Source of the DNA: Faecalibacterium prausnitzii
Lineage (GTDB): Bacteria; Bacillota; Clostridia; Oscillospirales; Ruminococcaceae
Assembly: GCF_003287495.1 (NCBI RefSeq)
Contig: NZ_PRLE01000002.1
Location: 310,001 to 374,000 of the forward strand
Length of the DNA stretch: 64,000 nucleotides
Direction of reading: 5' to 3'
Shown here: positions 4,795 through 56,090 of the stretch, piece after piece
How positions within the stretch are numbered: position 1 is the first letter of the stretch
How the letters are laid out: each line of letters starts with the position of its first letter
Made by a program: the position numbers and the translations under genes
Notes under the pieces: generated by a model
The model's database searches: none
What the model was told of the DNA's origin: nothing
Seen by the model: only the letters and a program-made list of their open reading frames with translations

Positions 4795-6444
4795 ATGTTT
4801 TTTCAGGGAAATGAAAAATACAACTGTGCCACATATCTTCGATTGTCGCGTTCGGATGGCGACCAGCAGGAGAGCAACAGCATAAAAAATCAAAGAGCGT
4901 TGCTGAACGATTACATGGGTAAGCACCCGGAATTGCACAAGTTCGACGAGTATGTGGACGATGGTTACAGCGGCACAAATTTTGAACGCCCGGATTTTAA
5001 GCGGATGATGCAGGACATTGAGAAAAGGAACGTCAACTGCATCATCGTCAAGGATTTATCTCGCTTCGGCAGAAACTACATTGAAACGGGCCGTTATCTG
5101 GAAAGAATCTTTCCGTTCATGGGTGTGCGCTTTATCGCCATCAACGATCATTATGACAGTGCAGAGGAAAACGATGATAAGGGCCGTATTCTGATTCCGT
5201 TCAACAATCTTATCAATGACACCTACTGCCGGGATATTTCGCTGCGCGTCCGCAGTCACCTGGATGTGAAACGAAAAGAAGGCCAGTTCATTGGCAGTTT
5301 CGCAGGGTATGGGTATCGCAAAGACCCCAAAGACAAAAATCATCTGATTATAGATGAATACGCTGCAGGCATCGTGCAGGAAATATTCAAACAGAAATTG
5401 AACGGAATGAGTTCACAGCGCATTGCCAGCCACTTGAACGAACTGGGTGTCCTGCCGCCGAACGAGTATAAGAGGGCCAATGGATTCAACTATACCTGTG
5501 GTTTTCAAGCTGGGCTGAATCAGAAGTGGACAGTGGTTTCCGTTAATCGTATTCTGAAAAATGAATCCTATACGGGAACATTGATTCAGGGTAAACGCAG
5601 GAAAATCAATTACAAAGTAAAAAAGAGCCATGATGTTGGAAGTGAAAACTGGATTCGGGTGGAAGATGCGCATGATGCCATTATCAGTAAAGGCGAGTTC
5701 CAGCAAGTACAACAGTTGTTGGAACTGGACACTCGTACCGCACCATCGCAGACAACAGTTTATCCATTATCAGGTTTTCTGCGCTGTGCAGACTGCGGGC
5801 AGAATATGATTCGCCGCACGGTGACGAAAAACGGAAAGAAGTATCAATACTATCACTGCTCTACCTATAAGAATGGCGGCGGCTGTACACCGCACATGAT
5901 AAACAGTGAGAAGCTGACGGAAAGTGTTCTGGCTGCGATTCGGCATCAGGTGACACTACTTGTAGAAGCGGAAAAGGTACTCTCCCATGCAGAGTTGGCA
6001 AGCGGAGAACAGATTGGAATAAAGATTCTGGACAGTCAGATCACTGCGCTGGAAGCTGAATTGGAACGGTACAGTAATTTGAAAATCCGTTTGTATCAGG
6101 ACTTATGCGATGATGTTGTCAGCCGGGAAGAGTACGGAGAAATGAACACTCGTTTTGCGCAGAAGATAAAAGAGGCGCAGGATAAGATTCAGGAAATCCG
6201 CGAAAAGAAGCAGGAAGCGTTAAAGCACGATACGCTGCTTCCCACTTGGCTGGAAGAATTTAAGCAGTACGAACATATCAAAACGCTCGAACGCAGGGTC
6301 GTGGTGGAACTGATCGACCACATAGATGTTCATAGTAAAACAGAGATTGAAATTCATTTTTGCTTCGAGGATGAACTGCACAGTACCACAGAAAAATTTA
6401 TGGAATATCAAGCACATCATGGAAATGAGGTGGCAGAGAAATGA
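4795..6444 (+). CDS. Large serine recombinase 1 (integrase/transposase)
   Basis: 549-aa site-specific recombinase. Resolvase domain at ~10-155: catalytic Ser18 in 'YLRLSRSDGD', and 'VKDLSRFGRNYIETG' with the active-site arginines. The recombinase (PF07508-like) domain follows at ~170-290, with the family word 'WTVVSVNRILKNESYTG'. The zinc ribbon is intact: 'CADCGQNM' plus 'HCSTYKNGGGC'. A long coiled coil (~395-470) comes next, as in phage-type large serine integrases. The start codon follows AGGAGG at an unusually long 13-nt spacing. Its stop overlaps the next recombinase start (ATGA), so the operon is translationally coupled. It probably catalyses excision and integration of the element, alone or with its partners. 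Confidence 0.92.
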   Translation: MFFQGNEKYNCATYLRLSRSDGDQQESNSIKNQRALLNDYMGKHPELHKFDEYVDDGYSGTNFERPDFKRMMQDIEKRNVNCIIVKDLSRFGRNYIETGRYLERIFPFMGVRFIAINDHYDSAEENDDKGRILIPFNNLINDTYCRDISLRVRSHLDVKRKEGQFIGSFAGYGYRKDPKDKNHLIIDEYAAGIVQEIFKQKLNGMSSQRIASHLNELGVLPPNEYKRANGFNYTCGFQAGLNQKWTVVSVNRILKNESYTGTLIQGKRRKINYKVKKSHDVGSENWIRVEDAHDAIISKGEFQQVQQLLELDTRTAPSQTTVYPLSGFLRCADCGQNMIRRTVTKNGKKYQYYHCSTYKNGGGCTPHMINSEKLTESVLAAIRHQVTLLVEAEKVLSHAELASGEQIGIKILDSQITALEAELERYSNLKIRLYQDLCDDVVSREEYGEMNTRFAQKIKEAQDKIQEIREKKQEALKHDTLLPTWLEEFKQYEHIKTLERRVVVELIDHIDVHSKTEIEIHFCFEDELHSTTEKFMEYQAHHGNEVAEK

Positions 6445-55641: not shown

Positions 55642-55670
55642 TTGACAGGGGTGACAGGCCGTGCTATACT
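55642..55670 (+). promoter_or_regulatory. Consensus sigma-70 promoter of the CAP-protein gene
   Basis: TTGACA (55642-55647), exactly 17 nt, TATACT (55665-55670). Transcription would start about 100 nt before the first riboswitch, giving a ~415-nt leader. Confidence 0.88.
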
Positions 55671-55765
55671 ACAGCTGTGGAAAGCAGAGTGCTGAAAAGC
55701 AGAATACTTTCCCCTGAGGATAAGTTTCCGGAAGGCTCCTGAAAAGGAGACTGCGAATTGAATAT

Positions 55766-55885
55766 TTAGCAAAATGACCGAAAGGTTATGACGCAAAGCT
55801 ATAGGGCCTGTAAAATGGCAGCCAGTTGCACATTACTTGTATGAGTGTTGTTTTGCTATCTGTTGCAATTCAATGCTCTTTTTCT
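55766..55885 (+). ncRNA. Cyclic di-GMP-I (GEMM) riboswitch 1 with terminator
   Basis: Aptamer ~55766-55833: a GAAA tetraloop in the P1b hairpin (TGACC-GAAA-GGTTA), the conserved core GACGCAAAGC, a second stem around AGGGCCT, and ATGGCAGCC closing with GTTGC against GCAAA. The expression platform follows: GAGTGTTG and CAATGCTC arms then TTTTTC (55843-55885). A TAGCAAAA / TTTTGCTA pairing between aptamer 5' side and the terminator loop suggests alternative folds. Confidence 0.88.
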
Positions 55886-55945
55886 TTTGCCTGAAAAGAA
55901 ACGCAGTCTTCGGAGTTCGTTGAAGAGATTGTAAATTTTCATAAA

Positions 55946-56062
55946 CCGGCAAAGCAGTCGAAAGGCTGTGACGCAAAGCTATAGGGCCTGTAAAATGGCA
56001 GCCAGTTGCACCTTGAAAGAGTATTGTATCCGCTCTTGGTGCGTTTACAATGCTCTTTTTTT
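55946..56062 (+). ncRNA. Cyclic di-GMP-I (GEMM) riboswitch 2 with terminator
   Basis: Second aptamer ~55946-56012, with 43 nt (55969-56011) identical to the first copy; P1b is GCAGTC-GAAA-GGCTGT. Its terminator is AAAGAGTATTGTA paired with TACAATGCTCTTT plus T run (56016-56062). An alternative GCACC/GGTGC pairing could compete. Located 29 nt upstream of the CAP-protein start. Confidence 0.9.
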
Positions 56063-56090
56063 GCAACATCGTCAACGAGGAGTCTTGAAT

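Follow-up and report, generated by a model that had tools for sequence, protein, structure and literature searches.

Two c-di-GMP-I riboswitches in series, predicted to act as transcriptional OFF switches, upstream of a gene for a secreted two-domain CAP protein in Faecalibacterium prausnitzii

Introduction

In one published survey, doublets and triplets of c-di-GMP-I riboswitches were more numerous than those of any other riboswitch class, at 347 doublets and 12 triplets (PMC9481103). Published c-di-GMP-I tandems consist, like the locus described here, of two complete aptamer and terminator units of the same class placed in series (PMC9481103). The triple tandem Bc3-5 of Bacillus thuringiensis is likewise built from GEMM-I units that each have a terminator, and gives a more digital response (PMC4759541); its units are ON switches (PMC4759541), whereas those of our locus are predicted to be OFF. 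Closer in direction are the class I switches of C. difficile, including Cd1, which are GEMM-I transcriptional OFF switches (PMC6200980, PMC9262584). The antiterminator of Cd1 captures the ligand-pairing C (PMC9262584), a layout that recurs in our second switch; Cd1 was, however, a single switch in those studies, and our first switch uses the 5′ aptamer strand instead.

A further comparison is offered by Geobacter, where a G at the selectivity base goes with c-di-GMP and an A with cGAMP (PMC6456294, PMC9481103), and where an A20G change in cGAMP-selective switches exchanges the ligand selectivity (PMC6456294). Our first aptamer has the A of these GEMM-Ib/cGAMP switches in common with them, but those characterized in Geobacter act as ON switches (PMC6456294), and we found neither a Hypr GGDEF nor DncV in the genome from which our locus comes.

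Here we describe a tandem within a 64,000-nt stretch (hereafter, the window) of a 2.68-Mb F. prausnitzii genome. The tandem itself is an ordinary, already known device, c-di-GMP-I doublets being common. New here are the host and the features that separate the locus from the published c-di-GMP-I tandems, namely the CAP target, the mix of two antiterminator designs that use different strands, and a natural A/G difference at the selectivity bases of adjacent aptamers, which provides a ready-made test of the selectivity position outside Geobacter.

Results and Discussion

Layout of the leader

The two c-di-GMP-I (GEMM-I, RF01051) aptamers of the window start 180 nt apart and share a 43-nt identical run (Table 1). 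Both score above the Rfam gathering cut-off for RF01051 (35 bits; search space 64 kb), and both have the GNRA tetraloop on P2, the GACGCAAAGC junction and the ligand-pairing C (C92). In the alignment, both copies retain every pocket and helix position, and the aptamer helices covary, with six pairs changed on both sides. We rejected a recent duplication as the source of the 43-nt identity: essentially the same 40-mer is present in 84 stretches of other genomes, mostly from Lachnospiraceae but also from Colwellia, Oscillibacter and others, and on this sequence comparison the shared 43 nt are family consensus. A minus-strand match to the sn1502 snoRNA (55874-55951; 27 bits against a cut-off of 60) was set aside as chance.

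The locus is a tandem riboswitch in that one promoter, one gene and an intrinsic terminator behind each aptamer are present. In five related leaders the aptamer is likewise preceded by a promoter matching at 10–11 of 12 positions, and a scan between the two riboswitch units gave nothing that exceeded 7/12. On the 5′ side of the leader lies a gene run of the thl-crt-hbd-bcd-etfBA type (identified from its ORFs, with etfA matched by Pfam), and a UPF0029 gene and the CAP gene are located 3′ of the aptamers. Owing to their long loops, both terminators escaped a simple scanner and were found by reading and folding. The first-pass annotation had described the spacing and identity of the two GEMM aptamers, which RF01051 scores and the sequence confirmed; its separate terminators both form in folding, its consensus promoter held up and has an extended −10, and the two-domain secreted CAP protein that it named as the target was matched twice by the Pfam CAP profile.

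Table 1. Features of the tandem riboswitch leader and its target gene (positions in the window).
Feature	Position	Strand	Evidence or detail
Promoter TTGACA-17-TATACT, extended −10 (TG)	55642..55670	+	11/12 match
Antiterminator strand 1: ATTGAAT (55757-55763) and TAGCAAAATGAC (55767-55778)	55757..55778	+	Pairs with 55868-55874 and 55847-55858, free fold
c-di-GMP-I aptamer 1	55758..55833	+	RF01051 55.6 bits, E 3.7e-8; selectivity base A55768, C92 = C55829
Terminator 1, GAGTGTTG / CAATGCTC, 20-nt loop, TTTTT	55843..55883 (arms 55843-55850 / 55871-55878)	+	Sequence, folding
ATTGTAAA, potential partner of 56044-56051 in terminator 2 (outer helix of the antiterminator)	55928..55935	+	Sequence, folding
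c-di-GMP-I aptamer 2	55938..56013	+	RF01051 57.9 bits, E 1e-8; selectivity base G55948, C92 = C56009
Antiterminator hairpin 2: GCACC (56008-56012) and AAGAG (56017-56021) with CTCTT and GGTGC (56033-56042)	56008..56042	+	Folding
Terminator 2, AAAGAGTATTGTA / TACAATGCTCTTT, 17-nt loop, 7 T	56016..56062 (arms 56016-56028 / 56046-56058)	+	13-bp stem
Shine-Dalgarno GAGGAG	56077..56082	+	Sequence
Secreted protein, two CAP domains, 286 aa	56091..56951	+	PF00188 E 1e-25, two stretches

The first switch and the proposed mechanism

The free minimum-energy fold of switch 1 is the antiterminator, in which TAGCAAAATGAC, including the pocket strand, is paired with the terminator region; the antiterminator strand as a whole overlaps the 5′ edge and the pocket of aptamer 1. 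When the aptamer fold was forced, a constraint that mimics the bound state without ligand energy, the antiterminator was abolished and terminator 1 restored, its probability in folding rising from 0.00 to 0.54. The same flip was seen in the relatives G003 (0.02 to 0.96) and G008 (0.04 to 0.97). Compared with shuffled sequences, the duplex between the 5′ strand and the platform gave p = 0.031 for switch 1 of the window and p = 0.004–0.061 for five related platforms, values that are non-independent among the orthologues because the genomes are related. The antiterminator pairing is also kept through sequence changes, with A-U at position 20 in the window and G-C or G-U in relatives, and U-A at position 19 in the window and C-G in relatives.

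We regard it as probable, from these folding models and those of switch 2 below, that one promoter feeds two complete c-di-GMP-I riboswitches in series, both of them transcriptional OFF switches. When c-di-GMP is low, RNA polymerase would read through both sites: the 5′ strand of empty aptamer 1 would pair with the 5′ half of terminator 1, and the 3′ strand of empty aptamer 2, with C92, would pair around the 5′ arm of terminator 2. At high c-di-GMP, the bound aptamers would withhold those strands, the terminators would form, and the secreted CAP protein would not be made. The predicted OFF/OFF direction accords with the uniformly “off” class I switches of C. difficile (PMC6200980). Because readthrough must survive both sites, repression would multiply, and a tighter and steeper response than that of a single switch is predicted; the proposal in the first-pass annotation that two switches in series sharpen the response agrees with the steepening expected of doublets (PMC9481103, PMC4759541). 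For the window tandem, ligand binding, direction, dose response and the function of the CAP protein are all what we infer.

The selectivity position

The two aptamers differ at the selectivity position, Vc2 position 20, which we take to be the base immediately 5′ of the GC-AAA junction, in agreement with what the papers say of its homologue. Here aptamer 1 departs from the consensus, with A55768 instead of the G that aptamer 2 has as G55948. This difference raises the possibility, which we entertain only tentatively, that A20 weakens or broadens aptamer 1, so that the aptamers differ in affinity and two thresholds produce a widened, two-step repression. Consistent with such thresholds, Oribacterium sinus and O. 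parvum repeat the A-then-G order in front of their CAP genes, an A also stands at position 20 in the orphan leaders of G002 and G013 (see below), and a published A-bearing aptamer showed improved cGAMP binding and perhaps slightly weaker c-di-GMP binding (PMC9481103). However, a G-to-A change at the homologous base made little difference in Cd1 (PMC9262584), the selectivity base is G in both aptamers of G003 and of G008, and A55768 could be retained for the sake of the antiterminator pairing. Among related aptamers G is usual without being required, A being found in 23 of the 97. On our preferred reading, the ligand of both window aptamers would be c-di-GMP, possibly bound with different affinity.

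The second switch

In the folding models, OFF behavior is found for switch 1 at equilibrium, and for switch 2 only before the 3′ arm of its terminator is made. At that stage antiterminator hairpin 2, which contains the ligand-pairing C56009 (C92), forms with a probability of ~1.0 in the free RNA and of 0.16–0.37 with the pocket masked. In a partner test against shuffles, the 3′ strand gave p = 0.013, while the 5′ strand was not significant (p = 0.23). The second switches of G003 and G008, and the switch of G015, are dominated before the 3′ arm is made by a 5′-strand antiterminator (0.85–0.94 free, 0.00–0.23 bound).

Switch 2 is nevertheless the weaker OFF case, since terminator 2 wins at equilibrium in both states, with a probability of 0.99–1.00 and with greater stability in the full-length fold whether the aptamer is free or bound. 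A terminator that is stable with or without ligand means that switch 2 must act kinetically, or could terminate constantly. The same dominance is thus one argument for an alternative in which switch 2 acts in the ON direction or terminates constantly and the pair is no simple double repressor; another is that a helix of ATTGTAAA with TTTACAAT can close around folded aptamer 2 and block terminator 2. This helix together with the bound aptamer is, however, ~10 kcal/mol worse than the terminator together with the bound aptamer, and antiterminator hairpin 2 requires a free 3′ strand with C92. We consider the alternative unlikely, and keep OFF as the predicted direction of switch 2.

Leaders and CAP genes in relatives and other genera

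RF01051 was found in 13 of the 31 genomes of the genus and a relative of the CAP protein in 17. Orthologous leaders, gathered by DNA pattern and genome search, include the tandems that G003 and G008 (F. hattorii) carry ahead of orthologous two-domain CAP genes (CAP proteins 52–53% identical). G015 has one aptamer left and no CAP match, and G002 and G013 (F. longum) have kept promoter, aptamer and terminator after etfA, again with no CAP match. A 16S rRNA gene lies ~680 nt beyond the orphan leader of G002, which bears the A20 aptamer (L060, G002:C1:886000-894500, motif at 4996), and the contig ends shortly after that of G013 (L020 1501-1576). Conversely, seven further species have a two-domain CAP gene (52–54% identical) whose leader matched no RNA family. 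Finding leaders and CAP genes apart in this way indicates that the riboswitch leader has been gained or lost while the gene stayed, and vice versa. The CAP orthologues that lack a riboswitch (L044-L050) have in common, ~150 nt before the CAP start, a promoter of the form TTGAC..-GATACT with repeats of an AGTTGCA-type motif behind it; these repeats are perhaps a protein-binding array standing in for the riboswitch.

Outside the genus, Oribacterium sinus and O. parvum (L101, L126) share with the window a GEMM-I tandem before a secreted CAP protein, which has a single CAP domain as opposed to the window's two. At these loci the stretch from the second aptamer to the CAP gene showed no evident terminator; a CTCC there is able to pair with the Shine-Dalgarno AGGAG, and the Oribacterium tandem may, judging by these motifs, act on translation. 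In Candidatus Stoquefichus, a CAP gene is preceded by one GEMM on its own. In all, five of six clear tandems precede CAP genes, in a small sample that was drawn with a single core pattern of the aptamer and that counts in the window and its relatives. The GEMMs before CAP genes in Oribacterium and Stoquefichus suggest that these CAP proteins are part of a life style under c-di-GMP control. A further tandem, in Bacillota bacterium SUG1745 (L114), has A at position 20 in both aptamers; the secreted protein encoded behind it, where the contig ends, is of unknown family.

c-di-GMP enzymes, cGAMP sources and a third GEMM

The first-pass annotation called c-di-GMP control unexpected in this host, and suggested a search for GGDEF/EAL genes and other GEMM copies. 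This search returned seven GGDEF and two EAL domains and a third GEMM-I in the genome, so that c-di-GMP control is to be expected rather than odd, as the RF01051 matches across the genus also indicate. A lack of GGDEF proteins, which the annotation had named as refuting its claim, is thereby contradicted. For c-di-GMP-II riboswitches there was no match in the genus, but that search matched nowhere at all and is hence no proof of absence.

The terminator of the third GEMM-I (C15:176306; L040, G000:C15:175500-186000, motif at 839) consumes the 3′ strand of the aptamer, which implies an ON layout. Behind it are encoded a secreted protein of 1004 aa that Pfam did not match, a signal peptidase, and FctA-like and sortase-like proteins, two of each; one of the sortases scored slightly below the cut-off. 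The simplest picture that these layouts suggest is reciprocal control, in which high c-di-GMP would induce the pilus-like operon and shut off the CAP protein. A commensal butyrate producer would thereby gain concrete c-di-GMP outputs: one signal is predicted to repress the secreted CAP protein and to activate the sortase-pilus-like operon. The operon also makes more plausible the putative surface or colonization program that had been proposed for the tandem.

A broader version of this picture takes the mixed A20/G20 GEMM-I tandem upstream of CAP genes as a device that recurs in Faecalibacterium and Oribacterium. Its two aptamers, unlike in selectivity or affinity, would gate a single secreted protein, through c-di-GMP and cGAMP inputs or through two c-di-GMP thresholds, and the third GEMM would switch the pilus-like operon in the opposite sense. 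We think this doubtful, and distinctly improbable as a whole.

Far less probable still is a two-input gate in which aptamer 1 senses 3′,3′-cGAMP and aptamer 2 c-di-GMP, as the A of the Geobacter switches and their A20G swap would have it (PMC6456294). We found no source of cGAMP: six alignable GGDEFs of the seven in this genome have the canonical Asp and none the Hypr Ser, the seventh (L010) being too diverged to carry the Asp/Ser motif; all 21 GGDEFs read in relatives have Asp and none the Hypr Ser; and no SMODS/DncV was found in this genome by a search that detected it in E. coli as a control. Since A is also too frequent among related aptamers to signify cGAMP everywhere and had little effect in Cd1, A55768 is not proof of a cGAMP switch, and with an A in aptamer 1 only and no cGAMP synthase found, the tandem does not have the makeup of GEMM-Ib. 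That the second copy is a decayed, functionless duplicate, an idea prompted by the orphan single aptamers of G015, G002 and G013, is just as improbable, given the intact pocket and helix positions of both copies and the retention of tandems in G003 and G008 despite diverged platforms.

The CAP protein

The CAP protein reached 91.3 bits against the PF00188 profile (cut-off 21.1), and no solved structures with sequence similarity to it were found. Tyr replaces both motif His in its N-terminal CAP domain, and the C-terminal domain retains HTRPDG, GE and SDGHR. A similar Tyr/His split between CAP domains was observed in G003 and other relatives.
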